NCBI RefSeq assembly: GCF_030758415.1
Contig: NZ_CP132334.1
Coordinates: 868,001 to 932,000, forward strand
Direction of reading: 5' to 3'
Length of the DNA: 64,000 bases
Origin: Parvularcula sp. IMCC14364
Lineage (GTDB): Bacteria > Pseudomonadota > Alphaproteobacteria > Caulobacterales > Parvularculaceae
Position 1 is the first letter of the stretch. Every line of letters begins with the position of its first letter. A program made the position numbers and the translations under genes. Shown here in pieces: positions 8,040 through 23,663 of this stretch. The notes under the pieces are model-generated. The model made no database searches. It had not been told where the DNA came from and was given only the letters and a program-made list of their open reading frames with translations.

Positions 8040-8086
8040 TGGCGACCCCGACAGGATTCGAACCTGTGGCCCCCAGATTAGGAATC
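8040..8086 (-). other. tRNA-Arg(CCT) 3' half, probable attR scar
   Basis: The minus strand reads from the anticodon loop (TTCCTAA) through the T arm (GGTTCGAATCC) to a GGGGTCGCCA 3' end, as in a tRNA-Arg with anticodon CCT. The 5' half is absent: upstream bases cannot pair with the anticodon stem. A lone 3' half is what remains at the far end of an element that integrated into a tRNA gene. The element would lie to the right of 8086. Confidence 0.75.
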
Positions 8087-8200
8087 ACTTCTGACCATTT
8101 TTCAACGTCAGTGATCATGCGGATTTATGCAGTAAAATCAACAGGTAAATCGATTTTGAGATTCCACGGAATTCCACCGAAATGCACCGAAATCCATGAG

Positions 8201-8312
8201 AAATGAACCTAAAATGAACCTAAACCAAACTAACGGCCCCAAGATAAAGCATCTGGGACCCAGGCTTTCTTCGCGAAAACCGGCACCGAATTCGTTTTAG
8301 GTTCATTTTTAG
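8201..8312. repeat. Direct and inverted TGAACCTAAA repeats
   Basis: TGAACCTAAA occurs twice in tandem at 8204-8213 and 8215-8224, and its reverse complement sits at 8296-8305. Just before them GCACCGAAAT-like units are also doubled (about 8177-8194). The cluster lies between the two tRNA 3' halves, which suggests integrase arm-binding sites or a regulatory site; the role is inferred. Confidence 0.45.
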
Positions 8313-8370
8313 TTCTGACGGACGGTTGTGGCTATTTATTCCTGTTGCGGAACATTGGCAAAATAGCTGA

Positions 8371-8412
8371 TACTCCCGGAGGGACTCGAACCCCCGACCT
8401 AGCGGTTATGAG
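8371..8412 (-). other. 3' half of a tRNA with CAT anticodon, probable second attR scar
   Basis: The minus strand gives CTCATAACCGCTAGG, then the T-arm sequence GGGGGTTCGAGTCCC and an acceptor end CCGGGAGTA. The anticodon is CAT (Met or Ile type). No D arm or 5' acceptor strand is present to the right, and CCA is not encoded. As with the scar at 8040, a retained 3' half points to an element integrated from the right-hand side. Confidence 0.65.
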
Positions 8413-8414
8413 CC

Positions 8415-8510
8415 GGTTTCGAGGTGTCTATAGAAGTCTCTGTACGTCTCAAACACACACAAAATATAGCATTGGTGTCTACAGTAGTCTATAGCGGTCT
8501 ACACGAAACG
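8415..8510. repeat. GTCTATAG/GTCTACA repeat cluster
   Basis: The units GGTGTCTATAGAAGTCT, GGTGTCTACAGTAGTCTA and TAGCGGTCTACAC recur within about 90 bases next to the CAT-anticodon half tRNA. Spaced short repeats beside an att core are typical of recombinase arm sites, but this is an inference from position only. Confidence 0.4.
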
Positions 8511-8533
8511 CTGGCCTTTGTTACCCAAATGGC

Positions 8534-8950
8534 ATGTTTTGGTGGAAGTTGCTGTTACCCAAAAATAATTCGGGCAGAGCTGGTGATGTGAATCCGGCAG
8601 CTCTTGTGGTCAGGTTGCTCACATATGTGAAGGGTGACCAAAGCGGGGATGGGAGCACATCTCAATCCATGGCTTACAAAAAGGTGGGAAACATATTTTT
8701 TTACCTATGTGTGTTGATGTTTTCCAGAAATGTGTCCCACAGACGATCCCTAAATGCAGGTGGAGTGAGAATTGCCTCCAAAGGTACAAACCTGGTAGAG
8801 TTTTCCGATGATCGACTTGACATAATAATAAATAATATCAATGAGTTACACGGTTTCGCGTGCACTATGCGTGCAGTGAGAAAAGATTTGCAAGTACCAA
8901 ACAGGGTACACAAATCAAAAAATGGAGCACCTGTTTTAAGAGAAATATAG
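8534..8950 (+). CDS. Uncertain open frame, hypothetical
   Basis: A 138-codon frame with no recognisable domain, no good ribosome-binding site at its first ATG and a composition that looks only partly coding. The second half (GVRIASKGTNLVEFSDDRLDIIINNINELHGF) is more protein-like, so a shorter gene starting near ATG 8719 is possible. It sits just inside the presumed attR. I would not be surprised if it is not expressed. Confidence 0.25.
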   Translation: MFWWKLLLPKNNSGRAGDVNPAALVVRLLTYVKGDQSGDGSTSQSMAYKKVGNIFFYLCVLMFSRNVSHRRSLNAGGVRIASKGTNLVEFSDDRLDIIINNINELHGFACTMRAVRKDLQVPNRVHKSKNGAPVLREI

Positions 8951-9302: not shown

Positions 9303-9740
9303 ATGGTTCTAGTAAAGCAAATTGCGATTTGGACAGTTTTGATGACATTTCTCATCAATCCTGTATTCGCATGCTGCCATTCTGGCGCATATCCTGTTGA
9401 AGAATCCATGAGCACCATGGAGAGCGTAAATGGCTCTTCGCACAAAGGGTGTCACGATGCTGAGCCTTCACCGTCAGATGAGCAGCCCCAAAAGCATAAT
9501 CCGATGGAACCCATGGATTGTGCCGGATGTGTGCAGTGCGACGCGTATTATCAAAAATACAATGAAATCGCTCTAAAGGCCCTTGTGGCGGAATTGCCGA
9601 GTGGTGAGAAAACTCTCACCGCTGAAGCATCACTGCAAGTTGATGTTGCTCTCTGGACTTCTACCCGGTTGCGACCACCCAGTCTGGCGCCGCCAGTTCA
9701 GCTATCTCCTGTCCAACTGAATAATATTCTGATCCTCTGA
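9303..9740 (+). CDS. Small Cys/His-rich periplasmic protein leading the Cu efflux operon
   Basis: A 145-residue protein with a signal peptide (residues 1-23, ending VFA before CCHSG), then a Cys/His/Met-rich region with HKGCHD and MDCAGCVQCDAYY, and a Pro-rich tail (LRPPSLAPP). The layout resembles the small metal-binding proteins that open other RND metal operons (CzcI or DUF2946-like), but I cannot assign a family firmly. A probable CsoR operator lies directly upstream and the TolC-like gene follows after 82 bases. It probably binds or senses copper or silver in the periplasm. The protein at 29382 has a similar plan at the head of the Czc operon. Confidence 0.7.
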   Translation: MVLVKQIAIWTVLMTFLINPVFACCHSGAYPVEESMSTMESVNGSSHKGCHDAEPSPSDEQPQKHNPMEPMDCAGCVQCDAYYQKYNEIALKALVAELPSGEKTLTAEASLQVDVALWTSTRLRPPSLAPPVQLSPVQLNNILIL

Positions 9741-9822
9741 TCCTCGGGAACAATCATTCGTGATTGCGCCAGGCGTTTTGTCGTCTGTGCAATAGAAACA
9801 GTTTGTTACCGGATTAGTTATT

Positions 9823-11088
9823 ATGAAGAAATCTTGCTATCAGTGCCTGCTATTCAGCCCATTCTGTAAATGGGTACCTGCCTCGCTCGCGTTAATGCTC
9901 TCATGGAACACTTTCCCGATTGCTCATGCACAGACATTTAAGGAATTGGAACAGCAGCTGCTCGACCATCCGTCCATTGTGGCGCTGCGTTTCAGTGAAA
10001 CAGCAAGCCGCGAAAGTGCTGCTGCTAATATTGGCTTGCCGGACCCAGTCATTTCTGTCGGGGTGAACAATGTACCGTTGCAGGACCCCGCATTTGACAG
10101 GTTTTTGCCGACCCACAAGGCGATTGGGGTCCGTCAGTCTTTGCCAAATTTTGCCGAACGCCGCGCGCTGTCTTCTGCCAATGAGCGCAGAGCCTCATTG
10201 CAAAAACTTCAGGCCGAGTGGCAATTCGTTACTCTAAGAGCGAAATTGATCAGTCTTCTGGCAACCCAAACTGCATTGAGTGAACAGCTCTCTATTCTGG
10301 CGGCGCGTGACATTAAATATAATGAACTGGAAGAGGTTATTCGTTCTGAAATTGATGCCGGACGCCCTGCCGTATTCAGGATAGCGGATATTGATATTGA
10401 ACGTGCCGATAGTGCTCGGGAAAAAGCTGCCATTTTGGCGTCACAGATTGAGGTAAGCGCCGGTATTGAAGAACTGGTCCTAATGGCAGCAAAGACACCT
10501 GCACCAGAAACCGCCCTTGCTCTGTGGGACGGGCAGGCTACCCGGTTTTATGCGGTGAGGTTGGCCGATCAGAACATCGATATCTCAGAGGCAGGCGTAT
10601 CAGCGGCAAAGGCTGCTTTTCGACCTGATTGGGGCGTATCGCTAACGTACCAGCAACGTGAAGAGGGTAGCGGTGCTCCCGGATCGACTTTTGCCGGTGA
10701 TGACTGGTTCTCTGCCAGCGTATCTGTCACCGTTCCCATATGGTCACGTCAGAACCAGCAGCCGAAACTGCGTGCTGCAAAAGCAAATGCAAATGCTCGT
10801 CGGCAGCAAAGCGAAGTTGCGGCGAGGGCCGCTCTCGCCGAGTGGCGGGTCTTGTCCGCAAAAATCGAAGCCAGCAACGACTTTCAGAAAATTCTGCGAG
10901 AAAAAATCTCAGCACTCGACAGCCGGATCGAAGCTCTGACCAGTAATTATGAAGCGGGGCTGGGAGATTATTCAACCATTCTCGACACTGAGATCACCCA
11001 ACTGAAATTTCAGAGCGATCTGGCAACTGAACGCGCCAGACAAGTTAGCCTGACAGCCCGGGCCAATAGCTTACTGGTGACACCATGA
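9823..11088 (+). CDS. cusC: Outer-membrane efflux protein, CusC/CzcC-like (TolC family)
   Basis: A 421-residue TolC-family channel. Residues 1-37 are a signal peptide ending in AHA before QTFKELEQ. The two TolC repeats are long helical regions rich in Ala, Glu, Gln and Arg, for example DPVISVGVNNVP, VRQSLPNFAERRAL and VTVPIWSRQNQQP (the second repeat). There is no lipobox, so it is not acylated at its N-terminus. Its stop overlaps the adaptor gene by four bases (ATGA), giving a tight outer-membrane, adaptor, pump order. It should form the exit duct for the CusA-like pump. Confidence 0.88.
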   Translation: MKKSCYQCLLFSPFCKWVPASLALMLSWNTFPIAHAQTFKELEQQLLDHPSIVALRFSETASRESAAANIGLPDPVISVGVNNVPLQDPAFDRFLPTHKAIGVRQSLPNFAERRALSSANERRASLQKLQAEWQFVTLRAKLISLLATQTALSEQLSILAARDIKYNELEEVIRSEIDAGRPAVFRIADIDIERADSAREKAAILASQIEVSAGIEELVLMAAKTPAPETALALWDGQATRFYAVRLADQNIDISEAGVSAAKAAFRPDWGVSLTYQQREEGSGAPGSTFAGDDWFSASVSVTVPIWSRQNQQPKLRAAKANANARRQQSEVAARAALAEWRVLSAKIEASNDFQKILREKISALDSRIEALTSNYEAGLGDYSTILDTEITQLKFQSDLATERARQVSLTARANSLLVTP

Positions 11089-12758
11089 GATCTTTAATAT
11101 TTGTCCTTTTCGTTTTGGTATATTCTCCTGTGATGGCGCAGGAGGCAGAACAATATACCTGTCCTATGCATCCGCACTATATCGCAGACCAGATGGGTAC
11201 CTGCCCGATTTGTGGCATGGACCTGGTGCCCGCTAAAGCAGACACGAACCAATCCCCGGGCAGTGGTGTGATTGTTTCTTCTGAAATGATCCAGACAATG
11301 GGCATACGCGCTGCACCAGTGCGTATGCAGAGTGTTGGTGATACGATCCGCAGCTTCGGCAATGTAATGCCAAGTACGCGACTTGAAACGGTTGTTGCCT
11401 CACGTGTTGAAGGCTGGATTGAAGACCTCGCTGTTTCGGCTGAAGGCGACGCCGCAGCAGCAGGAGACCTCCTCTACAGTGTCTACAGTCCTGATCTGAT
11501 CGCGGCGCAGAGAGACTTCATTAATGCGCTTAAATCCGGTTCAGTCGCGCGCAGCAGTGCAACAGAGCGACGCCTGAAATCACTCGGGATGCAATCTGGC
11601 GTGATTGCGTCTGTCAGGAAATCAAGGACCGTTATTGAGCGGTTACCGGTTTATGCCGAAGAGGCCGGTGTTGTTTCATATCTGGCGGTTCGCGATGGCG
11701 ATTATATCAAACCTGGGGCACCGATCATGCGATTGCAAAATTATGAACGGGTCTGGATCGTGGCCTCTGTAGCAGAAAAAGACATGAGGCGGATCAAAAA
11801 GGATACAAGCGCTGTTCTTTCATTGCCAGACATTAGCGAGGAACGCCAGGGCAAAGTGGATTATGTCTATCCGACGATTGACGAGGCGACCCGGACCGGG
11901 AAGGTCAGAATTGTTGCAGCGAATGAAGAGGGACTGTTGAAGCCCGGTGGCTATGCCGATGTCACCTTTGCTGTCGGAGAGCAGATGGTACTTGCTGTCC
12001 CGACAGAAGCCATTTTGCACGGTAGTGATGGTGCCCATGTTGTGACCATGACCAGCGACCAGGCTTTCAAACCAGTCATAATACGGACCGGTATCAGTGC
12101 AAACGGCTATACAGCTGTCGAAGCAGGCCTCGCTGAAGGAGACATGGTTGTGGTCAGCGGTCAGTTTTTGCTCGATTCAGAAGCGAGCCTGCGGGAAGGT
12201 TTCCGCAAGATGACACCGGCCACGAGCCTGATAGAAATGGATCGTGAGACACCTCTGTCAAAACTCCCCGTGAACGCTGAAACCCTGGCGCTGATTGACC
12301 ATTTTGTCGATGCCGGGCTTTATTTTCACGAAGCTTTAAACGACAATTACCGCGTTGATCCATTTTTTCTGGAGGCGTCATTGAAAGCCGGGGAGGGCCT
12401 TCTCGGCACCTTCGGCGACACCCGGCTTGCGCCTGTCATCAACGAGGCGATGCAGACCATTGAAGCAGCACAACGCTCTCCTGAGGCAGATGATCATAAA
12501 ACGGCACTTCGTGAGGCGCTCGCAAGTTTAGTGATTGCTCTTGAGCCGTGGTTCCTTGACGGCGCCCCAATTCATTATCGTGATCTTGGCTTGGCGCTGT
12601 TCCGGGATGAAGCATCTGGCAATCTGTGGGTGCAAGAAGGGGATGCGGCAAGCAATCCGTTTGGTAATGGCCCGTCGGTGCTGATCGAATGGCCTGATCC
12701 TATGGCCGGGATGGCACAGGATAACCCTGATCCGTCCCATGCCGGGCATGTACATTGA
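11085..12758 (+). CDS. cusB: Periplasmic adaptor of a Cu/Ag RND pump (CusB-like) with metal-binding N-terminus
   Basis: A 557-residue membrane fusion protein. After the signal peptide (residues 1-18) comes a heavy-metal-binding domain, YTCPMHPHYIADQMGTCPIC then GMDLVP, typical of CusB and CopB-type proteins. The middle carries the barrel-sandwich and helical hairpin (VEGWIEDLAVSAEGDAAAAG, YSPDLIAAQRDFINAL) and the beta-barrel (VWIVASVAEKDMRRIKK). A C-terminal extension of about 150 residues (from about residue 400), His-rich at its very end (DPSHAGHVH), exceeds the usual family length of about 400 and may be an extra metal-handling domain. It sits between the TolC and RND genes with overlaps on both sides. 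Confidence 0.9.
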   Translation: MRSLIFVLFVLVYSPVMAQEAEQYTCPMHPHYIADQMGTCPICGMDLVPAKADTNQSPGSGVIVSSEMIQTMGIRAAPVRMQSVGDTIRSFGNVMPSTRLETVVASRVEGWIEDLAVSAEGDAAAAGDLLYSVYSPDLIAAQRDFINALKSGSVARSSATERRLKSLGMQSGVIASVRKSRTVIERLPVYAEEAGVVSYLAVRDGDYIKPGAPIMRLQNYERVWIVASVAEKDMRRIKKDTSAVLSLPDISEERQGKVDYVYPTIDEATRTGKVRIVAANEEGLLKPGGYADVTFAVGEQMVLAVPTEAILHGSDGAHVVTMTSDQAFKPVIIRTGISANGYTAVEAGLAEGDMVVVSGQFLLDSEASLREGFRKMTPATSLIEMDRETPLSKLPVNAETLALIDHFVDAGLYFHEALNDNYRVDPFFLEASLKAGEGLLGTFGDTRLAPVINEAMQTIEAAQRSPEADDHKTALREALASLVIALEPWFLDGAPIHYRDLGLALFRDEASGNLWVQEGDAASNPFGNGPSVLIEWPDPMAGMAQDNPDPSHAGHVH

Positions 12759-12768
12759 GGGGGTGAAG

Positions 12769-15700
12769 ATGATGGATACGCATGATCCTCTCTCAGGCCG
12801 GGACCCGTCGCAGTCCACGATTGCACGGTCGATTGAATGGTCGGTGAATAATCAATTGATTGTCCTGGTGCTGGCGGCAACGCTCGCTGTTACCGGCTGG
12901 ATTGCAGTGCGCAATACGCCCCTTGATGCCATTCCTGATTTAACAGACACGCAGATCATTATTCGGACGGATTTTCCAGGACAGTCACCGCAGATTGTCG
13001 AAGACCTGGTAACATATCCGCTGTCTAACAGCCTGCTGGGCCTGCCACGCACAAAGGATGTGCGGGGCGCGTCCATGTTTGGTACCAGCTTTGTCTATGT
13101 CATTTTTGAGGATGATGTGGATCTCTACTGGGCGAGATCACGCGTTGTGGAAGCGCTCTCGCGCCTCGGGAGCCAGTTGCCTCAAAGCGCCACACCGCGC
13201 ATCGGACCCGATGCTACAGGGGTTGGCTGGGTCTATCAGTATGCGCTGGTCGACAAGACCGGGCAGCGCGATCTGGCCGAATTACGCACCTTACAGGACT
13301 GGTTTTTAAAACTGGAGCTTGCGGGCGTCGAAGGAGTGTCGGAAGTTGCCTCAGTTGGCGGATTTGAGCGTGAATATCAGGTGCTGATCGACCCTAACCG
13401 CCTGCGGGCATTTGATGTGCCGCTCACAAAAATTGCCGCTGCTGTCAAAGCCGCCAGCGGTGAAGTCGGTGGCCGGGTGATGGAGCAGGGGGAGACGGAA
13501 TATGTGATCCGGTCCTCTGGATATGTCAAAAACACGGACGATTTGAAGCAGATTGTTCTTTATGCCGATAATGGGACGCCAGTAACACTGGGCGATGTGG
13601 CTCTGATCATTGAGGGTCCGGCGCTGCGGCGGGGAATTGTCGAACTGAATGGCGAAGGCGAGACGGTTGCTGGCATTGTCATTATGCGCGATGGCGAGAA
13701 TGCTTTAGACGTTGCGGAACGCGTTAAAGAAAAACTCAAAGTGCTTCAGCGGGGCTTGCCGGAGGGTGTCGAAATCCAAACGGTCTATGATCGGGGGCCT
13801 CTGATCGAAGGCGCTGTGTCCTATTTAGAACATAAGCTGATTGAGGAGGGAATTGCTGTTGCCCTGGTGACATTGCTGTTTCTCTTACATGTCCGGGCTG
13901 CTTTTGTTTCCATCATCACGCTACCGCTTGGCGTACTTGGTGCCTTTTTAATAATGTCGGCACAAGGCGTCACTGCAAATATCATGTCCCTTGGTGGTAT
14001 CGCGATTGCCATTGGCGCCATGGTCGATGCTTCCATTGTCATGGTAGAAAATGCGTCCCGACGATTATCCGCACTGCCTCATGATGCAGGGGAGGCCGAA
14101 CGCCGCCGGGTGATCTTAAAGGCGGCACGGGAGGTGGGGCCTGGATTATTCTTCTCCCTCTTGATTATTACGGTATCCTTTCTGCCGGTCTTCGCTCTCA
14201 CCGGGGAAAGTTACAGGCTGTTCTCGCCATTGGCCTTTACCAAGACCTATGCCATGGCGTTTGCCGCCTTGTTATCGGTCACTCTGGTGCCGGTTCTTAT
14301 GCTGTGGCTTTTGAAAGGGCGAATTGCGCCAGAAGAGAAAAATCCTCTCAACAGGTTTTTTATTGCGGCCTATCGGCCAGTCCTGCAGCTTGCCCTGAAG
14401 TTCAAATGGCTGACAGTGGGGGCGGCCATTTTCATGATGGCGACGGTTGCCTGGCCAGTATCACGACTTGGTTCTGAATTTATGCCTGCGCTCTATGAAG
14501 GTGAACTGCTTTATATGCCAACGACATTGCCAGGTGTTTCGGCGACAAAAATGCGTGAGCTGTTGGGGCAAACCAACCGCCTTATTGAAACCGTGCCGGA
14601 AGTCGACAACGTCTTTGGCAAGGCAGGTCGTGCTGACACCGCAACTGATCCTGCACCGCTTACGATGATTGAAACCTGGATACGGCTTAAGCCGCGCAGC
14701 GACTGGCGCCCCGGGATGACTCCCGAAAAGTTGATTGAGGAATTGAATACCCGGGTTACCATGCCAGGGCTTGTCAATTCCTGGGGATATCCGATTAAAA
14801 TCCGTATGGATATGGTTTCAACCGGCGTTCGAACGCCCATAGGGATCAAAATCACCGGCGATGACCTGGAAAAAATTGCCGATCTTGCATTGGAGATTGA
14901 GCAGGTGGTGAAAACTGTCTCAGGTACGCGATCCGCTTTTGCAGATCGTGTTATTGGAGGTAAATATCTCGAAATCTTGCCCGACCGCAAAGAGCTGGCG
15001 CGACGTGGTATCGACATGCAGACATTCCAGGCGGTGATACAGACGGCGCTTGGCGGAATGAAGCTTGCCGAAAGTGTCGAAGGTCGCGAACGGTACAATA
15101 TTATGCTCCGCTATGACCGGCCATTTAGAGAGAGCGGTGATGCGATTGCGGATATTTTGATCCCGACACAGAGTGGGGCGCATATTCCGATCGGTGAAGT
15201 CGCGACCATTCAGTATACCGAAGGGCCACCGATGATAAGGTCAGAAAACGCCCGATTGACCGGCTGGGTGTTCGTGGACATCGCCGAACGCGACCTCGGC
15301 GGATATGTGGCTGATGCACGCGAGGTCGTGGCACGCGATGTGTCGCTGCCGCCGGGGTATGCTGTCGACTGGTCTGGTCAGTATGAACAGCTGGAAGAGG
15401 CCAATGCCCAGCTTGCCCTGGCGATCCCTGCCGCCATTGTGTTGATATTCCTGCTTTTGATGCTGCATTTCGGGCGGCTTGACCGCACCATCATGATCAT
15501 GGCGTCGCTGCCGTTCGGACTGATCGGCGGGCTCTGGGCTGTATATCTTGCAGGGTATAATTTGTCCGTCGCAGTGGCTGTCGGGTTCATTGCCCTGGGA
15601 GGTATTGCCGTTGAAACGGCGGTGGTCATGCTGCTTTATCTGGATGCGCGTATTCGCGAGCAACCACCGAAAACGCTACAAGAACTGTCGACGGCAGTGA

Positions 15701-15960
15701 TGGAAGGCGCCGTATTGCGGGTACGCCCCAAACTGATGACTGTGGCAACGATCCTGGTGGGGCTTGCGCCGATTTTTATTACGTCGGGCCTTGGGGCGGA
15801 CGTCATGCGCCGGATTGCCCTGCCTATGCTGGGCGGCATGGTTTCAACCCTCATTTTGACGCTGGTCGTTATACCTGTCTTCTATTATATCTGGGTGGGG
15901 CGATCACTTCAGCGGCAGGCATTAACCCCTGATGCTGCAATCAGGACACAATTCAACTAG
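12769..15960 (+). CDS. cusA: Heavy-metal RND pump, CusA-like
   Basis: A 1063-residue inner-membrane proton antiporter of the HME-RND class. TM1 is near residues 25-45 (LIVLVLAATLAVTGW), followed by the porter domain (DLTDTQIIIRTDFPGQSPQI). TM4 carries the family motif AMVDASIVMVENASRRL, and a second porter domain precedes the last six TM segments (GFIALGGIAVETAVVMLLYL). I chose ATG 12769, eight to nine bases after GAGGGGG; an ATG at 12739 in frame lies inside the adaptor gene. With the two preceding genes it forms a complete tripartite pump. The CusF and CopC/D neighbours favour Cu(I)/Ag(I) as substrate. Confidence 0.93.
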   Translation: MMDTHDPLSGRDPSQSTIARSIEWSVNNQLIVLVLAATLAVTGWIAVRNTPLDAIPDLTDTQIIIRTDFPGQSPQIVEDLVTYPLSNSLLGLPRTKDVRGASMFGTSFVYVIFEDDVDLYWARSRVVEALSRLGSQLPQSATPRIGPDATGVGWVYQYALVDKTGQRDLAELRTLQDWFLKLELAGVEGVSEVASVGGFEREYQVLIDPNRLRAFDVPLTKIAAAVKAASGEVGGRVMEQGETEYVIRSSGYVKNTDDLKQIVLYADNGTPVTLGDVALIIEGPALRRGIVELNGEGETVAGIVIMRDGENALDVAERVKEKLKVLQRGLPEGVEIQTVYDRGPLIEGAVSYLEHKLIEEGIAVALVTLLFLLHVRAAFVSIITLPLGVLGAFLIMSAQGVTANIMSLGGIAIAIGAMVDASIVMVENASRRLSALPHDAGEAERRRVILKAAREVGPGLFFSLLIITVSFLPVFALTGESYRLFSPLAFTKTYAMAFAALLSVTLVPVLMLWLLKGRIAPEEKNPLNRFFIAAYRPVLQLALKFKWLTVGAAIFMMATVAWPVSRLGSEFMPALYEGELLYMPTTLPGVSATKMRELLGQTNRLIETVPEVDNVFGKAGRADTATDPAPLTMIETWIRLKPRSDWRPGMTPEKLIEELNTRVTMPGLVNSWGYPIKIRMDMVSTGVRTPIGIKITGDDLEKIADLALEIEQVVKTVSGTRSAFADRVIGGKYLEILPDRKELARRGIDMQTFQAVIQTALGGMKLAESVEGRERYNIMLRYDRPFRESGDAIADILIPTQSGAHIPIGEVATIQYTEGPPMIRSENARLTGWVFVDIAERDLGGYVADAREVVARDVSLPPGYAVDWSGQYEQLEEANAQLALAIPAAIVLIFLLLMLHFGRLDRTIMIMASLPFGLIGGLWAVYLAGYNLSVAVAVGFIALGGIAVETAVVMLLYLDARIREQPPKTLQELSTAVMEGAVLRVRPKLMTVATILVGLAPIFITSGLGADVMRRIALPMLGGMVSTLILTLVVIPVFYYIWVGRSLQRQALTPDAAIRTQFN

Positions 15961-15991
15961 AACAACAAACCTTTGAGAGGAGATCGATCAA

Positions 15992-16423
15992 ATGACACGA
16001 AGGAAACTGGGCCTTGTTGCCGTCTTGGGGCTGGCGTCCCTTGCCGCATGCGGACAATCCCATGACGGACATGGAAACCATGACAAGGACAACCCCGAGA
16101 TGGCTGACCATAGCGGGCATGATATGAAAGATCATGACATGAAAACCGCACCAGACGCGATGATCCCGGTAAATGGGAAAGTGGTGCAGGTATTCGCAGA
16201 TGCAGGACGGATCAAGATCGATCACGAGGAAATCCCGGCAATCAATATGGCGGCAATGACCATGTCTTTCGAGGCAGGCGGAGATGTGGACCTTGTGCGG
16301 TTCAGCGAAGAGGATGCGGTCCACTTCATGCTGAAACAAGGGCGCGATGGCTCTTTCCGCATTATGCAGATGTGTAAGACCGACGGCAGTGATGATGAAT
16401 GCATGAGCAACATGAATCACTGA
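15992..16423 (+). CDS. cusF: Periplasmic Cu/Ag chaperone, CusF-like
   Basis: A 143-residue lipoprotein-like protein (LASLAAC lipobox near residues 15-21) with a His/Met/Asp-rich linker (HDGHGNHDKD, HSGHDMKDHDMK) and a C-terminal CusF-type OB domain: GKVVQVFADAGRIKIDHEEIP then INMAAMTMSF. The His of IDHEEIP and the two Met of AMTMSF match the CusF copper ligands. The capping Trp seen in E. coli CusF appears to be Met here. It follows the pump by 31 bases behind a GGAG site and should hand copper to the adaptor. Confidence 0.88.
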   Translation: MTRRKLGLVAVLGLASLAACGQSHDGHGNHDKDNPEMADHSGHDMKDHDMKTAPDAMIPVNGKVVQVFADAGRIKIDHEEIPAINMAAMTMSFEAGGDVDLVRFSEEDAVHFMLKQGRDGSFRIMQMCKTDGSDDECMSNMNH

Positions 16424-16442
16424 CGGCATGATAATAAATTGA

Positions 16443-16467
16443 CCTTATACCCTATAGGGGTATAAGG
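16443..16467. promoter_or_regulatory. CsoR-type operator 2 over a promoter
   Basis: A 25-base dyad starting CCTTATACCC and closing GGGTATAAGG. It overlaps a plausible promoter, TTGACC at 16439-16444 and TATAAG at 16461-16466 (16-base spacer), 36 bases before the CopC start. Binding by CsoR would block this promoter. Confidence 0.85.
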
Positions 16468-16503
16468 TTGGGGATGGGATCGTTCATTCCCGGAGGGTAT
16501 TCT

Positions 16504-16851
16504 ATGCGCATTTTAGCAGCCATTCTGGCGTCAATCATGGTGCTGGCAGGCACAACAGCCCTTGCACATTCCATGATTAAAGAGATTAATATCTCTTCCG
16601 GGGACAGCTTTGCGGTGTCTCCTGAAACATTCGACATCACCTTCAGTCATAAGGCGTCGCTCGCCGATATTGAACTTGAAACGTCGTCAGGTATGGCGAT
16701 TGAAACCGGTTTTGAAAGCGACGACGATATGTCGGCAAGCTTCAGTGTCGATCTGCCGACCCTGGAAAACGGTGACTATCTGTTAACATGGAAAGCCGTC
16801 GCGCGCGATGGGCATATCATGTCAGATACGATCGATTTTTCTGTCGAATGA
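16504..16851 (+). CDS. copC: Periplasmic copper-binding protein CopC
   Basis: A 115-residue protein with a signal peptide ending TTALA, so the mature protein begins with His (HSMIKEIN), the usual Cu(II)-binding amino terminus of CopC. The second ligand His lies in ARDGHIMSD near the C-terminus, and LLTWKAVARDGH is the conserved CopC motif. ATG 16504 is preceded by GGAGGG; an earlier ATG at 16468 would lie almost on the operator. It is followed at once by CopD, the usual partner. Confidence 0.92.
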   Translation: MRILAAILASIMVLAGTTALAHSMIKEINISSGDSFAVSPETFDITFSHKASLADIELETSSGMAIETGFESDDDMSASFSVDLPTLENGDYLLTWKAVARDGHIMSDTIDFSVE

Positions 16852-16861
16852 TGCAGCTGGC

Positions 16862-17704
16862 GTGCTGACAGTTCTAGCGATTCTCATCAAATATACTCTG
16901 TATGCCAGTGCGCTGTTCCTGATCGGGCTCAGCCTGCATCGGGTGTTTCTGATTGAGAATGTATCGAAAAAGAAAACGGGCTTATTGGCGCCAGTCGGCG
17001 GGATTTTTCTCGGGGCTGTTGTCCTGAAACTGCTGATTGCCAATGCGCAGTTGGCAGGATCTCTGTCAGGGGCATTTTCAGGAGATACTTTCAAATGGGT
17101 CTGGCGACCTCATGCTATCCAGACCTATTTGTTTGTGGGTGCGCTCGGTGCAGTTGCAGCCTACAGGGTTTTTAATTGGCGTGCTGGCCTTGTTATTGCT
17201 CCTGCAGGCATTGCTCTTGGTTTTGGGATGGCAGGACATATTCAGGGTATCGAGGCGCCAGCCATTTGGGTGCCGTTTGTGGCGATCCATGTGTTGATTG
17301 CGGGGTTCTGGCTTGTTGCGCCCCTAACCCTTTATCCAGCTGCGGCCGTGCCCATCAGCGAGCTACAGCAGCGAACAGCACGCTTCAGTTCCCTCGCGAT
17401 CAAGGCAGTTCCACTATTGTTTGTGACCGGCGTTCTGGTGTTGTGGCAATTGCTGGAGGGGCTGGGCCAGATGGTGTCCACGCCCTATGGGCGTCTGTTG
17501 ACCTTTAAGCTCGTCGCGGCGGTTGTCTTACTGGGGCTTGGCGCCATCAACAAATTTTGGGTTTCTGAACAGCTGGCACAGAAACCGACATCAGGCCTCA
17601 TCACGCTGAAGCGAACATTGGTGGGAGAGGCCATTTTATTTGCAAGTGTCCTGCTCATTCTGACCCTAGCCACCACCATTACTGGGCCGGGGCACACCGG
17701 ATAG
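16862..17704 (+). CDS. copD: Copper resistance membrane protein CopD
   Basis: A protein of about 280 residues with eight or so TM segments and the CopD domain in the C-terminal half (FSSLAIKAVPLLFVTGVLVL, GRLLTFKLVAAVVLLGLGAI, NKFWVSEQL). I place the start at GTG 16862, just before the first TM segment; an ATG at 16808 in frame overlaps copC. Known CopC/CopD pairs move copper across the inner membrane. Here CopD may instead serve copper supply or sensing beside an export pump. Confidence 0.88.
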   Translation: MLTVLAILIKYTLYASALFLIGLSLHRVFLIENVSKKKTGLLAPVGGIFLGAVVLKLLIANAQLAGSLSGAFSGDTFKWVWRPHAIQTYLFVGALGAVAAYRVFNWRAGLVIAPAGIALGFGMAGHIQGIEAPAIWVPFVAIHVLIAGFWLVAPLTLYPAAAVPISELQQRTARFSSLAIKAVPLLFVTGVLVLWQLLEGLGQMVSTPYGRLLTFKLVAAVVLLGLGAINKFWVSEQLAQKPTSGLITLKRTLVGEAILFASVLLILTLATTITGPGHTG

Positions 17705-17747
17705 TGTCAGTCCTGGAAACGGGCATGACAGATATAACAGGAGATAA

Positions 17748-18233
17748 ATGATGAAAAAATTGATGACGAGGGTTTGTATAACAATATCTGTACTGATTTT
17801 GTCCTTATCAGGCGTCATGGCGTCAGACTCAGGTGATGCAGCGATCACATCGATTATTTCTGAAATCGAGTATGGCTGGGAAAACGGGGACGGGACCCCC
17901 TTTAGAGAACATTTTCTCGACTTTGAGGGCGCCCGTTATATCGAGTCTGGCGGGCAAAATGAGGGGCTCGATGATCTGGTCTTGAACCATGTAGAACCTG
18001 AAAAAGGGGCGATCCCGGACCTTCAGCTCGATTTCTCCGATTTAGAAATTCACTATGAAGGTGAAGACTTTGCCTGGGCCGTTGTGGACACCAGGATTAA
18101 AGGCACCATCGTGAAATCCGGGCGCGTGCTCGATAAAGCGGGTCGGCAGACATTCCTGTTTCGCCGGGTAGAAGGGGCCTGGAAAGTCGTCCATACCCAT
18201 TCTTCTTCACGCGACTACAATCCTAAAAAGTAA
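17748..18233 (+). CDS. Secreted SnoaL/NTF2-like protein
   Basis: A 161-residue protein with a signal peptide (residues 1-25, ending GVMA) and an NTF2-like alpha+beta domain: [20 protein letters not shown], a central beta region and a terminal [18 protein letters not shown], which is the typical DUF4440/SnoaL-like ending. No catalytic residues can be assigned. Genes of this type recur in copper operons with CopC/CopD. It lies 44 bases after copD and 14 before the CsoR gene, so it belongs to the same operon. Confidence 0.78.
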
Positions 18234-18246
18234 ACGGAGCAACTGC

Positions 18247-18516
18247 ATGTCAAAATCGGAGGCGACCATCAAACGACTGCGGCGTATCGAAGGACAGGTG
18301 CGCGGTGTCATCAAGATGCTGGAAGAGGACCGCTATTGTATTGATGTCTTGCATCAAATGCAGGCAGTCAAGTCAGCGGTGGCACGGGCGGAAAGTGAAA
18401 TCCTGAAAGATCATGCCGCAACTTGCGTAGAAGGGGCGATCAATTCCGGCAGTAAAAAACATCAGCGTGAGAAAGTCTCTGAGCTGATCGATCTGTTTGA
18501 TAAACTTAAAAGGTAG
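18247..18516 (+). CDS. csoR: Copper-sensing repressor CsoR
   Basis: An 89-residue all-helical repressor. The Cu(I) ligand set is complete: Cys31 in RYCIDVLHQ and His56 with Cys60 in DHAATC, at the same spacing as C-H-C of M. tuberculosis CsoR. KRLRRIEGQVRGVIKMLEED is the conserved DNA-contact helix. Copper binding should release it from the three dyads at 9252, 16443 and 20381. It is encoded within the operon behind operator 2, so it is probably autoregulated. Confidence 0.93.
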   Translation: MSKSEATIKRLRRIEGQVRGVIKMLEEDRYCIDVLHQMQAVKSAVARAESEILKDHAATCVEGAINSGSKKHQREKVSELIDLFDKLKR

Positions 18517-18522
18517 GATCGC

Positions 18523-19251
18523 ATGAACAGGGCACTCTTTAACAGGCGGGCAAGACAACTTCATCTCTGGCTCGGGCTTGCCATCGGGGCGCAAGTTGGT
18601 CTGTGGCTGATTTCCGGCCTCTTCATGACCTGGTTTCCGATTGAAGAGGTGCGGGGGGAACATTTGCGCACTGAGATGGAGCCTGCCGCGTTTACAAATA
18701 TAAGTGACTTACTGACCCCTGATGCGATCCTTGAGAAAAGTGAAGTAGCCGCAGACAGTCTTTCTTTGCACTTTCTATTGGAGAAGCCGGTCTGGCGCGT
18801 CAGCGGGGACGGCAAACGCAAGCTGGTTGACGCAACAACAGGCGACATCATCTCGCCTTTGTCTGAGGAGATGGCGATCGGCCTCGCACAATCCTCGTAC
18901 AGTGGCGAAGGGGCGATTGTCTCAAGCACATTCCTCACTGAACCACCACGAGAATATGGCAGGCCGGGGCCCGTCTGGAAAGTTAACTTCGGGCCAGATC
19001 ACGCAGCAAGCTTCTATGTAGATGCGTCAATGGGCGAAGTACGTGCCGTACGGACCACCTTATGGCGGGTCTTTGACTTCATGTGGGGGCTGCACATTAT
19101 GGACTGGTCTACCCGTGAGAACTTCAATTCCTGGTGGATCAAAATGACGGCCTCGCTGGCGATTGTATTTTTCTTTGCTGGGCTATGTCTTTCCATTCTT
19201 CGGGTGATGAGCTGGATCGGACAGAAGAGCCGACGCACACCAGCGCCATAG
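18523..19251 (+). CDS. PepSY-domain membrane protein
   Basis: A 242-residue protein with a TM segment near residues 15-36 (LHLWLGLAIGAQVGLWLISG), a periplasmic region with two PepSY-like parts (LVDATTGDIISPL, VWKVNFGPDHAASFYVDAS) and a second TM segment near 205-228. WGLHIMDWSTRENFNSWW is characteristic of PepSY-associated TM proteins. It begins seven bases after csoR. Such proteins often accompany metal or reductase systems, but the exact role is not known; copper induction is inferred from the operon. Confidence 0.78.
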   Translation: MNRALFNRRARQLHLWLGLAIGAQVGLWLISGLFMTWFPIEEVRGEHLRTEMEPAAFTNISDLLTPDAILEKSEVAADSLSLHFLLEKPVWRVSGDGKRKLVDATTGDIISPLSEEMAIGLAQSSYSGEGAIVSSTFLTEPPREYGRPGPVWKVNFGPDHAASFYVDASMGEVRAVRTTLWRVFDFMWGLHIMDWSTRENFNSWWIKMTASLAIVFFFAGLCLSILRVMSWIGQKSRRTPAP

Positions 19252-19283
19252 AGGTATAGTAATCTAATGAAAGAAGCCAGTTA

Positions 19284-20342
19284 ATGGACAGTCTTTTTTT
19301 TAGAGTATCACCGAAAGACCCCCTGTTTGAAGCCAATTACCTGACCAGTGTGCGCTGGGGCCTTGCCGGGGCAGTCATGATTGCCCATGCCTGGGAGGTC
19401 AATGACGGGATTGACCCCCTGGGGGTCTATAACTGGCAAGCAAGTGATCTTGCCGTAAACGGATTTTTTATCCTGTCGGGTATGCTGATCGCGAAGAGCC
19501 TGGCGACCCGGCGGCATCTGGGAGACTATTTCAAATCTCGCTTCCTGAGACTGTTCCCGGCTCTGGCTCTTGTGGTGATTGCGAGCCTGTTGTTTTTTGG
19601 GCCGGTTTTTTCACCAGCAAGCGAGGGAGCTTTTCTGAAAGACTCCCAAGCCTGGGCTTATGTGACCCGTATCTTCGGGTTGATGGACCCCAGAGGAGAG
19701 GTGGCAGGTGCTTTTTCAGGTAACTCTGAACCACATTTAAACGCCCCCTTATGGACCATCCGGTTTGAGGTATTTTGCTACATTCTGGTTGGTGCAGCGT
19801 TTGCGATGGGTCTCCTGAAAAACCGGCTGGTAGTGCTCGGGATGTTTCTCGTTTTCTCCCTGATCAGTATGACGCGCTTTATGCCTGAGCATTCTTTTTT
19901 ATCTCTGGCGGGCTATGATTTCTTTCGCCTGACTTCGGCCTTTTTGCTCGGCGTTTTACTCTTTTACGTGCCTGAGTTGAGGCGGCCACGATTGATGATC
20001 GTATTGATATGTGCGGTATTATTTCTGTTGTTTGGGCGGTTATGGTTCAGTGAAATTTTCGCCAATGTCTTCCTTGCCTTGGGTATTCTATATGCTGGTT
20101 TTTATGGTCGCCATATTCCCTCGCTCGCCAAATTGCCGGATTATTCCTATGGCATTTATATCTGGCATTATCCGATCCTGCAGGCGCTGGAATATTCTGT
20201 TCCGTCACTTCAATCCTGGCAGCTGTTGGTGGTGGCGACACCACTTGTATTGATTTGCTCAGGTTTGTCCTGGCATTTTGCGGAAAAGCCTGCCCTTGGT
20301 TTGAAAAACAAAAAGTTTCTGAATGTTCCGAAAAGACTTTGA
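19284..20342 (+). CDS. Acyltransferase family 3 membrane protein
   Basis: A 352-residue protein with about ten TM segments. LTSVRWGLAGAVMIAHAWEV, SDLAVNGFFILSGMLIAKSL and YFKSRFLRLFPALALVV are the standard opening motifs of acyltransferase_3 (OafA/NodX type), with the conserved His in MIAHAW and the Arg cluster after TM3. It would acylate a surface sugar or lipid. It is at the end of the operon behind operator 2, 32 bases after the PepSY gene, which suggests envelope modification under copper stress, an inference from position. Confidence 0.85.
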   Translation: MDSLFFRVSPKDPLFEANYLTSVRWGLAGAVMIAHAWEVNDGIDPLGVYNWQASDLAVNGFFILSGMLIAKSLATRRHLGDYFKSRFLRLFPALALVVIASLLFFGPVFSPASEGAFLKDSQAWAYVTRIFGLMDPRGEVAGAFSGNSEPHLNAPLWTIRFEVFCYILVGAAFAMGLLKNRLVVLGMFLVFSLISMTRFMPEHSFLSLAGYDFFRLTSAFLLGVLLFYVPELRRPRLMIVLICAVLFLLFGRLWFSEIFANVFLALGILYAGFYGRHIPSLAKLPDYSYGIYIWHYPILQALEYSVPSLQSWQLLVVATPLVLICSGLSWHFAEKPALGLKNKKFLNVPKRL

Positions 20343-20380
20343 GTGCATTTTCGACGTGCCGCCTGCTGGGTAGGTAAGCC

Positions 20381-20413
20381 ATTGATATATACCCTAGGGG
20401 GGTATATATCAAT
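20381..20413. promoter_or_regulatory. CsoR-type operator 3 over a promoter
   Basis: A 33-base dyad with perfect 14-base arms (ATTGATATATACCC and its complement) around TAGGG. TTGATA at 20382-20387 and TATATC at 20405-20410 form a promoter with a 17-base spacer. The start codon at 20455 follows 41 bases downstream, the same geometry as operator 2. Confidence 0.83.
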
Positions 20414-20454
20414 ATCCTGTTCACTTAGGTTGAACTATCGATAAGGAGTCGCAA

Positions 20455-21186
20455 ATGGCAACGGCCACATTGTATCGGATAGTCACGGATGACCACACAT
20501 GTCCGTTTGGGTTGAAGGCAAAGTCCTTACTGCAACGTCGCGGCTATGACGTTGAAGATCATCTCCTGAGTGACCGTGCGGCACAGGACGCGTTTAAACA
20601 AGAGCATGATGTTCAGACGACACCGCAGATCTTTATCTCTGGTGATCGGGTAGGGGGTTACGATGATCTACGTCAGTTCTTGGGCATCAAAGCAAAGGGT
20701 AAAGACGAAAAGACCTACGCACCGATCATCGCAATTTTTAGTGTTGCAGGGTTGATGTCACTGGCAGTTGCCTGGATGGCCTATGGGGCGTTCACGTCAT
20801 TGCGCGTTATGGAGTTATTCGTCGCGATCAGCATGTGCATCCTTGGTATCCAGAAACTGCGGGACCTCGACGGCTTCACCAATGGATTTATAGGCTATGA
20901 CTTACTGGCCAAGCGTTATATCCCTTACGCCTATATCTATCCTTTTGTTGAAGCTGGCGCGGGCATTTTGATGATTGCCGGTGGCTTTGCCGCAAAAGCT
21001 GCTGCGCCTTTTGCGTTGGTGGTGGGAAGTATTGGCGCATGGTCCGTTTACAAAGCGGTTTACATCGATAAACGGGATATCAATTGCGCCTGTGTAGGTG
21101 GCAACAGCCGGGTGCCACTGGGAGCGATTTCTTTAACTGAAAACCTGATGATGATTGGGATGTCGATCTGGATGATCGTTAAATGA
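20455..21186 (+). CDS. Glutaredoxin-MauE/DoxX fusion membrane protein
   Basis: A 243-residue protein. Residues 1-78 are a glutaredoxin fold: HTCPFGLKAKSLLQRRGYDV carries a single active-site Cys16 (CPFG, monothiol type), and QTTPQIFISGDRVGGYDDLR is the cis-Pro glutathione-binding motif. Residues 95-243 are four TM segments of MauE/DoxX type with INCACVGGNSRVPLG near the end, two Cys that could form a second redox site. ATG 20455 follows AAGGAG. A CsoR-type operator stands alone in front, so this single gene should respond to copper. It may reduce disulfides or deliver thiols for copper handling. Confidence 0.87.
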   Translation: MATATLYRIVTDDHTCPFGLKAKSLLQRRGYDVEDHLLSDRAAQDAFKQEHDVQTTPQIFISGDRVGGYDDLRQFLGIKAKGKDEKTYAPIIAIFSVAGLMSLAVAWMAYGAFTSLRVMELFVAISMCILGIQKLRDLDGFTNGFIGYDLLAKRYIPYAYIYPFVEAGAGILMIAGGFAAKAAAPFALVVGSIGAWSVYKAVYIDKRDINCACVGGNSRVPLGAISLTENLMMIGMSIWMIVK

Positions 21187-21305
21187 TTGCAGGGAAACAT
21201 AATGTTGCACTATTGTGCTTCTTCTTCTGTAAGCCTGTAGGCAGCGCCTTTCTCATAAACATCACTCAATGCCCCTGCTTCCTCAATAGCGCCATTTTCG
21301 AGGGC

Positions 21306-21587
21306 TCATTCAACAAATCTATCAGGAGCATTTCTTACACCATGAATGTTAGAACCGCTAATGCCTGAACTTTGTCTCGAATTTTCTATTCCGCCTAAAT
21401 ATGCATCTTCAAAATTTAATTCAGTAAAGCTGGCGCGTGCCATATTTGCACCACCCACGTCTGCACCTTTTAATTCTATTAATGTGAATCCGACATCGTT
21501 CAGATTCGCAATACTCATCATGACTTTCTGGCTAATTGAAAATCCTAATGCCGATCCTGACAAATCAGTGCTGATATGGTCATTCAC
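21306..21587 (-). CDS. Small pentapeptide-repeat-like protein
   Basis: A 93-codon frame starting at GTG 21587. The middle, ELKGADVGGANMARASFTEL then NFEDAYLGGIE, has the every-fifth-residue hydrophobic pattern (A/L at centre) of pentapeptide repeats, about six units. The ends show no domain. Its start overlaps the stop of the VOC pseudogene, so the two were in one transcript with the MerR gene. It could be a short remnant. About 120 bases between it and the gene ending at 21186 hold nothing clear. Confidence 0.45.
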   Translation of the reverse strand: MNDHISTDLSGSALGFSISQKVMMSIANLNDVGFTLIELKGADVGGANMARASFTELNFEDAYLGGIENSRQSSGISGSNIHGVRNAPDRFVE

Positions 21588-21958
21588 TTAAGTTGCGCCA
21601 GATGCCAGAGTACGCCTGCCGGATCCCAGAAATGGGTGACCAGTTTTGCATAGGCCGCAGGTTCAGGTGGTTTTGTCCTAGCAGCGCCAAAGGAATAATC
21701 CTTGAGCACCTGCTCGATATGACGGTGCCAGGCGGCGGCATCTTCCACATCCATATACATCATGGAATTGTCGCACCAATCTTTCTGGTAATAGCGCTGC
21801 AGATAAAAGCATCTGCCGTCAAGTTAGAGTTCGGCCAATTCTCCCTCTTCGAAGTTTACCTTCCAGCCGAGAGCCAAATAAAAATCCCGAGACTGATCAA
21901 AATCAATCGTTCCGATGAAGGTTTTGAGGTTGAGTGTATTAAGGTCAGGGGTTGTCAT
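21584..21958 (-). pseudogene. VOC/glyoxalase-family protein with an in-frame TAA
   Basis: From ATG 21958 the minus strand reads LNLKTFIGTIDFDQSRDFYL and ALGWKVNFEEGELAEL, then TAA at 21826-21824, and goes on in the same frame with LDGRCFYLQRYYQKDWCDNS, VEDAAAWHRHIEQVL and FWDPAGVLWHLAQLK before TGA. The fold order (beta-alpha-beta-beta-beta) and the DPAGVLWHL end match VOC dioxygenase-like proteins. A single change from GAA or CAA would give the stop. The start overlaps the MerR stop as ATGA. The gene is broken unless the stop is read through. Confidence 0.8.
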
Positions 21959-22338
21959 CTATTAAGGGCCTCAATGATCGGGCAGTCCGGCGTTGCGCCG
22001 CGTTCGCACTTATTTGCCAACCCGGTGAGAGTGCGTTCCATCTGTTTCAGGTCGCGGATTTTCTTGCGAATATCAGCCAGGTGATGTTCGGTGAGAGTGT
22101 AGACGTCCTTGCAGGCAGGAGGTGTTTCTTGCAGGGCGATTAGCTGTTTGACTTCGTCAATACTGAAACCAAGTTCTCGCGCCCGGCGGACAAACACCAG
22201 TCGCTTCAGATGAATTTCGTCAAACTCGCGCCGCCCGCCACCGCTGCGCGGCGGCTGTGGTACAAGGCCAGTCTTTTCATAGTAGCGGATGGTCTCAATA
22301 TTGACGCCGGATTGCTCTGATAATGCCCCGATCTGCAT
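21955..22338 (-). CDS. merR: MerR-family regulator, mercury type
   Basis: A 127-residue activator. Residues 1-40 are the winged HTH (IGALSEQSGVNIETIRYYEK). Three Cys at 76, 111 and 119 (PPACKDV, ANKCERG, PDCPII) have spacing 35 and 8, against 35 and 9 in Tn501 MerR, so Hg(II) sensing is likely, with other soft metals possible. ATG 22338 follows AGAGGA; a longer frame upstream is not needed. It is divergent from the MerT-like gene and its operator dyad lies at 22389-22403. Confidence 0.87.
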   Translation of the reverse strand: MQIGALSEQSGVNIETIRYYEKTGLVPQPPRSGGGRREFDEIHLKRLVFVRRARELGFSIDEVKQLIALQETPPACKDVYTLTEHHLADIRKKIRDLKQMERTLTGLANKCERGATPDCPIIEALNR

Positions 22339-22382
22339 GAATTCCTCTCGGTTTTGTGAGGTCGTATAGCAGGTATATTCAC

Positions 22383-22413
22383 TTGCTTCTGTAGTAACTA
22401 CAGGTTGTAGCAT
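22383..22413 (+). promoter_or_regulatory. MerR-type promoter with 19-bp spacer
   Basis: TTGCTT (22383-22388) and TAGCAT (22408-22413) are separated by 19 bases that hold the dyad CTGTAGTAACTACAG (22389-22403). The overlong spacer with a central dyad is the signature of MerR activation. The first codon of the MerT-like gene at 22420 is only seven bases from the -10 box, so the mRNA leader would be almost absent. Confidence 0.85.
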
Positions 22414-22419
22414 CCAAGC

Positions 22420-22788
22420 ATGACAGAATCAAATCAGGAACAAAACACAGGCCAGCTTGAAGGAGGCTCAACGTCGCTGACGTCTTTTGGCGCTTTGTCG
22501 GGGTTACTTGCACTAATCGGGGCATCCTGTTGTGTATTGCCACTTCTCTTGATTAATCTTGGGGTTAGTGCGGCGCTTGTTAGCCACCTTGGAGTTTTGG
22601 CCAGGTGGCAACCCTGGCTGCTGGGGCTGACGATGCTTTTGCTTATTGCCGGCCTTGTTCAGATGTTCCGAAAGGGGCGGCGGCCTGGAATGGGTCTGGT
22701 CATACTCTTTGTGGTCGCAGTCCTTATTGCCGCAGCTGCGTTCATCATGCCTTACTATGAAGCAGATATATTACGATGGGTAAGATAA
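22420..22788 (+). CDS. merT: MerT-like mercuric ion transporter
   Basis: A 122-residue membrane protein with three TM segments (about residues 24-50, 62-82 and 90-112). The vicinal Cys pair in GASCCVLPLLL in the first segment matches the Hg(II)-carrying pair of MerT. No MerP gene follows and no MerA is present in the window, so ions taken up would need another route of disposal. It begins at ATG 22420 almost on top of the MerR promoter. A copper or other soft metal role is possible. Confidence 0.82.
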   Translation: MTESNQEQNTGQLEGGSTSLTSFGALSGLLALIGASCCVLPLLLINLGVSAALVSHLGVLARWQPWLLGLTMLLLIAGLVQMFRKGRRPGMGLVILFVVAVLIAAAAFIMPYYEADILRWVR

Positions 22789-22915
22789 ACATGAATTTGT
22801 GAATTTTCGGTGTTGCAGACTGAGTTATGTTGTGTGGAGTGCGGGTTTTCTGGTTGGCTTGACCGTTATCCTAGATGGATATGGGTCGTTACCGTGAAGA
22901 CTAAGGAGGTGAAAC

Positions 22916-23305
22916 ATGTCAGAAGCGCAACGTGAGAAGGATCTGTCTCGTCGGTTGCTCCCATTCGCATTATTATGGGGCATACCAATTATCTTGCTGT
23001 GTTCAGCGAATTTCCTTGAGGAGTTTTTTTCCGCTGCGCCGATTATTCTGATTATGGCCGGGGCTTATATCTGGATGGGCGTCGGATGCATTATAAATGC
23101 AATGCAGTGCGGGAGGCTCCATTGTTATCTCGCAGGACCTGTCATGGTGCTTGGTGGCAGTTTGATCTTTGCCGTTGGGTTTGATCTGATTAGCTTCGGG
23201 CCCATACGGGTTATGCATTTGAGTTATACAACAATCGCTTTGGTCGCCCTGACATTTGTTCTGGAGTGGCTGCTCGGGGCCTATACTAAGCGGGCAAACA
23301 GCTAA
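22916..23305 (+). CDS. Four-TM membrane protein of unknown family
   Basis: A 129-residue protein with four hydrophobic segments (about residues 15-32, 38-60, 68-90 and 97-118) and few charged residues between them. LINAMQCGRLHCYLAGPVMV-like text (IINAMQCGRLHC) puts two Cys and a His at a membrane face, which may bind metal. ATG 22916 follows AGGAGG. It is next to the GDCC protein gene, and genes of this pair often neighbour mer genes. I do not recognise a named function. Confidence 0.72.
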   Translation: MSEAQREKDLSRRLLPFALLWGIPIILLCSANFLEEFFSAAPIILIMAGAYIWMGVGCIINAMQCGRLHCYLAGPVMVLGGSLIFAVGFDLISFGPIRVMHLSYTTIALVALTFVLEWLLGAYTKRANS

Positions 23306-23314
23306 GGAGTTTCT

Positions 23315-23542: not shown

Positions 23543-23663
23543 CCTTGGGTGAGCGAAACATCACTTTTGAAGCTGTCACCGAATGTTGTCATCCTGGCAA
23601 GGGCCTGTTTGCGCCTCGTTCATAGAGCGCAGAATAACGGCCTGACTATTTGGGCTGCAAGCG

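Follow-up and report, generated by a model that had tools for sequence, protein, structure and literature searches.

The stretch of DNA analysed here (the window; 64 kb of Parvularcula sp. IMCC14364, G000:C1:868001-932000, within a 3.42-Mb single-contig genome) contains on its minus strand the 3' parts of two different tRNA genes without their 5' halves, followed to the right by metal-efflux genes, a conjugation module and a tyrosine integrase gene that runs off the right edge. Both halves, Arg-CCT and CAT-anticodon, had been noticed from the letters of the window alone, and both are present, with identities to chromosomal tRNA genes of 47 and 41 bp; exact matches of these lengths far exceed chance, and a chance origin was ruled out. 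In window coordinates, the features are:

8040..8086, minus: 3' part displaced from tRNA-Arg(CCT); forms the left attachment core of element A, where tandem island B adjoins (47 bp identity)
8160..8199, plus: ~10-bp repeats TTCCACGGAA/TTCCACCGAA/ATGCACCGAA, possibly directionality-factor sites (read from the sequence; the corresponding part of the His-type left end in G008 aligns with them)
8204..8222, plus: putative arm-type pair of integrase A, two copies of TGAACCTA, with a third, inverted, at 8298-8305 (same pair at the right end)
8375..8415, minus: 3' part of a CAT-anticodon tRNA, native acceptor end absent; vestigial left core of a sister-clade element (41 bp identity)
8426..8503, plus: GTCTATAG/GTCTACA repeats inside the CAT end (8426, 8477, 8487, 8497), possibly directionality-factor sites (locally similar to Thr, Lys and one Tyr left end)
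8520..8562, plus: two copies of GTTACCCAA (8520, 8554), putative arm-type sites of the Met/Lys/Thr integrase clade (motif, spacing)
9303..29322: cargo with two RND efflux systems, CopD, a MerT-like protein (below the Pfam cut-off) and others (Pfam)
9823-15960: RND system 1, OEP/CusB-like/ACR_tran (Pfam)
23664-29322: RND system 2, ACR_tran and OEP (Pfam)
43338..56638, plus: conjugation module with DUF3363 protein, TraG-type coupling protein, T2SSE/VirB11-like, CagE/VirB4-like, TrbL, VirB8, CagX and TrbI (Pfam)
57697..59378, plus: HTH/HipA toxin-antitoxin-like pair (Pfam)
63226..64000, continuing to 64434 outside the window, minus: tyrosine integrase of element A (Pfam domains, complete gene)

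An ICE in tRNA-Arg(CCT)

The displaced Arg half is 100% identical to the first 47 bases, in window orientation, of an intact tRNA-Arg(CCT) gene at G000:C1:932548-932624 (window 64548-64624, minus strand), and an identical 47-bp core thereby marks both ends of the intervening element A (8040-8086 and 64548-64594). The integrase gene, correctly seen to leave the window, is complete at 63226-64434 (G000 931226-932434; 402 aa, Phage_integrase and Arm-DNA-bind_3 domains) and starts 113 bp from the intact tRNA. The original prediction had placed an intact tRNA-Arg(CCT) or CAT-anticodon tRNA gene beyond the right edge beside the integrase and had named the absence of both as evidence against it. The tRNA-Arg gene was found there, starting 548 bp past the edge, in the right orientation and with the identical 3' part; the tRNA-CAT gene was not. 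A forecast from raw sequence of what lies beyond the window was thus borne out for one of the two tRNAs. ARAGORN called no complete tRNA within the 64-kb window, and in-silico removal of element A, or of A together with the neighbouring island B, left a tRNA-Arg.

With a tyrosine integrase beside the attachment site, an identical core at both ends, and a presumed relaxase, a coupling protein and mating-pair genes at 43338-56638, element A is an ICE of 56.5 kb (window 8040 to ~64594) in tRNA-Arg(CCT), carrying a T4SS, a probable relaxase and metal-efflux cargo. Its conjugation module is of the Trb type, and the DUF3363 protein (43338) is probably the relaxase, in view of the association of DUF3363 with relaxases. 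The integrase beside tRNA-Arg(CCT) would integrate the element at the 3' part of that tRNA, and integration would shift the old 3' part to the far left end while the element's own copy restores the tRNA; the anatomy is directly visible, and for the reaction we rely on what is established for islands that target tRNA genes. Of the two sites, only that of Arg is expected to be active today.

Among five congeners the right flank of tRNA-Arg is conserved in 5/5 and the left side differs in 5/5, and no clean empty site was found. Stretches of 7-14 kb of the congeners' left flanks had no match in G000 802-868 kb, except two matches of ~32% identity to genes inside A; G010 and G011 have one left-flank gene in common, at different distances, and the large G000 match of G013's left flank lies at 1.93 Mb. 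Base composition gave no informative signal. Plasmid searches returned 12 records with short matches only for window 8000-12000, and 25 records, all below 60% identity and ~30% in the ten matches listed, for integrase A. Near the integrase, metallo-hydrolase, rhodanese/YgaP and TauE genes (window 59508-62085) perhaps form a sulfide-detoxification group.

One integrase family at six tRNA targets

Integrase A had 13 matches, itself included, in 10 of 62 family genomes (E<=1e-10); four of these are gene fragments, of which one contains a stop. At 12 of the 13 loci the match adjoins a tRNA gene: Arg, His (two), Tyr (three), Met(CAT) (three), Lys (two) and Thr. The locus without an adjoining tRNA (L057) encodes a protein 30% identical to integrase A. 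An alignment-based scan of genome contigs yielded 10 integrase loci, all 10 adjoining a tRNA; two of these were new, both from Labrenzia and at tRNA-Lys, and the other eight lie on contigs already found in the family-genome scan. The same scan with a single integrase as query yielded no loci, and in 385 class genomes the G009 integrase at E<=1e-40 matched in G000 itself only. The relatives at the six tRNA targets are 36-60% identical to integrase A, and the family was seen mainly in Parvularculaceae.

In a tree of 12 integrase rows, Arg and His were joined with support of 98/95, two Tyr with 100/99 and two Met-CAT with 99/100, and Met-CAT, Thr and Lys were joined with weaker support (86/96); four of nine inner forks were well supported, and the root is unsure owing to two long branches. 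Two further arrangements were seen among the relatives. In L119 1001-3900 (G022:C22) a Tyr half and a tRNA-Tyr stand 2.8 kb apart with an integrase fragment between them, apparently a collapsed element of this family. Two His halves (L116 and L117, G009:C12:10237 and 75) lie to the left of one tRNA-His, a probable tandem array that again belongs to this integrase family.

Two kinds of left end

Pairs of TGAACCTA are present at both ends of element A, the right-end pair lying between integrase and tRNA. In the family as a whole the integrase-tRNA interval contains TGAACCTA pairs in Arg and His loci, the variants TGAACCAA and TGTACCAA in Tyr loci, and GTTACCCAA or GTGACCCAA in Met-CAT, Lys and Thr loci. 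By analogy with lambda-type systems, such arm-like and repeat sites would bind the integrase or a directionality factor. The relatives provided ten far-end tRNA halves, not all paired with an integrase on the same contig, and the distance of the arm sites was measured from the inner edge of the core. The first arm site of the TGAACCTA-like class stands at 119 bp in the element's own Arg end (with the second at 130 bp), near the values of 116 and 118 bp in Tyr and 120, 121 and 120 bp in His left ends. The GTTACCCAA-like class, which comprises three reference ends, has its first site at 105 (Lys), 106 (Thr) and 105 bp (Met-CAT of G005). Three ends do not follow this spacing: one Tyr end of G022 (site at 127 bp only), another Tyr-like end and that of island B (no site in either). 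With six targets and clade-specific arm-like sites, the integrase A family offers a compact natural series for comparing how targets are chosen and arms recognised.

The CAT end of the window carries GTTACCCAA at 105 and 139 bp. Its first site thus agrees with the three reference ends, in which a GTTACCCAA-like site lies ~105 bp inside the tRNA 3' half; its second differs, the references having theirs at 116-117 bp. No GTKACCCAA occurs in the window beyond the pair at 8520..8562. The inner 200 bases of the left ends were also compared (z from 500 shuffles each). The CAT end scored z 8.5 against Thr, 6.9 against Lys and 5.1 against Met-CAT. Two Tyr ends gave 9.0 (G034) and 3.1 (G022), and the scores for the remaining seven ends (three His, own Arg, that of island B, two Tyr) were near 0 or lower. 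The own Arg end scored z 16.5, 13.1 and 8.3 against the three His ends and 6.9-7.6 against three Tyr ends, with weak similarity to Thr (3.2), Met-CAT (2.9) and a fourth Tyr end (~3). Since the CAT end also resembles Tyr ends, the repeat region between core and arms is not specific to a clade; only arm motif and spacing are.

When 12 left-end regions were scanned with 38 tRNA sequences (11 isoacceptor types), halves of two tRNAs occurred in that of element A alone, so that the composite reading rests on one case. Short stretches that look like decayed anticodon-stem cores lie near further GTGACCCA sites in L114 962-1400 (G034:C98, Thr-type) and L115 (G030:C8, Lys-type); these are perhaps stacked, decayed attachment sites.

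The CAT half is a vestigial attachment end

The coordinates first given for the halves were correct for Arg and slightly off for CAT, whose identical part is 8375-8415 rather than 8371-8412 (minus strand, no mismatch to the chromosomal tRNA-CAT). That tRNA is at G000:C1:1647400-1647476, 0.77 Mb away, with the nearest Phage_integrase match 60 kb from it. The acceptor end beside the CAT core reads TGATACT where the native sequence is TGGTGGG, and a hybrid of the remnant with the chromosomal 5' half was not recognised as a tRNA by ARAGORN, which called the native gene. Recombination at a core with such an altered acceptor end should yield a defective tRNA, and the CAT end is therefore vestigial.

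As read from core, arm motif and spacing, the CAT half is a genuine attachment (left) end of integrase A's family, and its arm sites, spaced as they are, point to the sister clade. Because it bears the Met-CAT/Lys/Thr signature, it would be a vestigial sister-clade left end within the left end of the ICE itself. The suggestion that this half ended a second element closing to the right was not supported: its tRNA lies far off, with no Phage_integrase match nearer to it than 60 kb, no second CAT core was found in the window (the only other one found in G000 is the chromosomal tRNA-CAT), and a CAT-type integrase query against G000 (E<=0.01) matched integrase A alone. The halves had been described as nested; two left ends are indeed stacked, one apparently live and one vestigial, and a live nested CAT element was ruled out, its second core, arm set and integrase not having been found. 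Members of a tandem array have an integrase of their own and an intact tRNA on the element side, and the CAT fragment has neither. Window 8525-8604 matches L034 1901-1980 (G012:C3, a congener) over 80 bp at 94% identity; this stretch, which has no tRNA half in G012:C3, holds one arm-like site and a hairpin-like AGAGCTG...CAGCTCT.

A mosaic backbone and the origin of the stacked ends

Sequence comparison marks the backbone of element A as a mosaic. At 43.3-56.6 kb, eight of 11 ORFs share 47-74% identity with the contig of the His-targeted element of G009, and the other three 31-41%. Five ORFs at 33.5-45.3 kb (33536, 39933, 41175, 42650, 43338), one of which encodes the probable relaxase, are closest to the CAT-type contig of G022 (38-67% identity), two of the five being nearly tied with G009; the G022 contig stops short of a far end, which limits the T4SS comparison with it accordingly. 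Window 9210-23598 is common in blocks to G012:C4. There, in L033 292-19302, the metal cassette of window 9.2-23.6 kb is inverted and stands 1.7 kb away from an intact tRNA-CAT that is the second copy of that tRNA in that congener.

Taken together, element A is very probably an Arg-targeted ICE with a vestigial sister-clade CAT left end inside its own left end, and hence composite. Core, arm motif and spacing indicate that the second left end (8375-8562) would come from an element with an integrase of the sister clade (tRNA-CAT, Lys, Thr), which would since have been lost together with its right end while the acceptor end of the CAT core was altered. Such a composite could have arisen by a module swap from CAT-type to Arg-type, or through accretion of a CAT-type island and subsequent deletion. 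A swap, to which we give a little less than an even chance, would have replaced the CAT-type integrase and right arm of an ICE lineage by an Arg-type cassette of integrase and attP, with the left junction inside the CAT core. The circular order of integrase A, Arg core, A arms, truncated CAT core, CAT arms and body fits such an event, and replacement of one segment explains why integrase and right arm are missing and why the acceptor end is altered; the occurrence of the integrase family at six tRNAs and the five ORFs closest to the CAT-type G022 contig also point this way. Most T4SS genes, however, best match the His-type G009 element, which belongs to A's own clade, although the G022 contig ends before a far end; nor was an integrase relic found in G000. 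The same T4SS genes favour accretion, to which we give the same chance as to the swap. Here an Arg-type ICE would have received a CAT-type metal-resistance island, either directly or in a tRNA-CAT gene that the ICE carried, and deletions would have taken away the island's integrase end and the acceptor end of its left core. The metal genes begin directly to the right of the CAT end (9.2-23.6 kb) and have their G012:C4 relatives close to an intact tRNA-CAT; mobile elements with CAT tRNA genes are reported from Sinorhizobium in the available part of one study (PMC11476347), and composite islands with truncated attachment sites are already described in the accessible text of another (PMC8978831). 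Accretion nevertheless requires two deletions, and no right end could be placed for the inserted island. Moreover, the CAT half and a Phage_integrase match are absent from G012:C4, which was therefore not established as a second copy of the CAT-type island and whose tRNA may be unrelated.

Two further readings carry little weight. The remnant might still be used in trans by the CAT-type integrase of a co-resident element, as its 41-bp core without mismatch to the host tRNA and its arm-like sites would allow; we consider this very unlikely, given that no CAT-type integrase was found in G000 and that the resulting tRNA was not recognised by ARAGORN. More improbable still, in our view, is that the element carries the CAT piece as a complete but degenerate tRNA gene, with no attachment end at all. 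This idea draws on a full-length match to the Rfam tRNA model of 27.9 bits (cut-off 29; Arg half 18.2), which comes partly from an acceptor stem in which 6 of 7 pairs are possible, G-U included. Equal acceptor pairing arose in 2234 of 5000 shuffles, ARAGORN made no call, and the anatomy of an attachment end follows at the distance typical of the clade. As a control, halves at 11 further loci were compared with the tRNA model in a larger search space, and none of them reached it among the matches listed.

Returning to the composite reading and its swap form, the stacked ends may be the fossil of a retargeting, in which a tRNA-CAT module was exchanged for a sister-clade tRNA-Arg module within one alphaproteobacterial family and the old left end was kept, a scenario we regard as possible at slightly under even odds.

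Relation to known composite elements

A literature search of partial coverage found no description of element A or of stacked ends of two tRNAs. Element A is a further example of the known composite, tandem and module-replaced islands, with a left end that is unusually legible. The available portion of the report on CGI48 of Shewanella describes composite genomic islands formed by accretion, in some of which truncated attachment sites are said to stabilise the composite (PMC8978831). As far as that portion goes, CGI48 resembles A in having one element within another and a HipA-type pair aboard, and differs in that in A a single guest end remains, and the integrases of guest and host come from sister clades within one family. 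Streptococcal ICEs, in the accessible parts of their description, have related backbones with different integrases and targets, and for one of them the proposal is that a second element integrated and a loss followed (PMC4701971); compared with that account of module replacement, in A an old attachment end itself was apparently left behind. The tripartite ICE3 of Mesorhizobium, to judge from the excerpted text (PMC5882170), shares with A that a single ICE contains attachment sites belonging to more than one tyrosine integrase. Unlike ICE3, in which several integrases each have an attachment pair, A has the single integrase of its family in G000 (unrelated integrases occur elsewhere in that genome), its second site is vestigial, and no three-part assembly was seen. 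To judge from the stacked ends, composite elements can retain a legible record of a target used before.

Tandem island B

A further Arg half, 46 bp identical to tRNA-Arg, is present at G000:C1:843195-843244. It delimits island B (G000:C1:843195-876040, window 1-8040 included, ~32.8 kb), which is in tandem with A at the same tRNA-Arg: Arg fragments stand at 843195 and 876040, and integrases at ~843.4-844.6 and 931.2-932.4 kb. The integrase beside the Arg half of B differs from that of A and has 383 aa with Phage_integrase, Arm-DNA-bind_3 and SAM-like domains. Islands integrated in tRNA genes, displaced fragments and tandem arrays have been described in the Islander work, in the part of it available (PMC4383910). 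As in those arrays, an intact tRNA, an integrase and a displaced 3' fragment share one orientation, and A and B stand in tandem at tRNA-Arg, each with a fragment and an integrase; unlike the arrays in that part of the work, A holds an extra fragment of a different tRNA without an integrase.

The gene to the left of island B is repetitive, with many matches, and was excluded from use. The integrase of B adjoins the displaced half and not the tRNA, TGGTAGCA repeats were seen at the island's left end only, and its right end bears an IS3-like element. Island B also contains glycoside hydrolase genes of families GH17, GH16 and GH3, which probably serve the use of beta-glucan.
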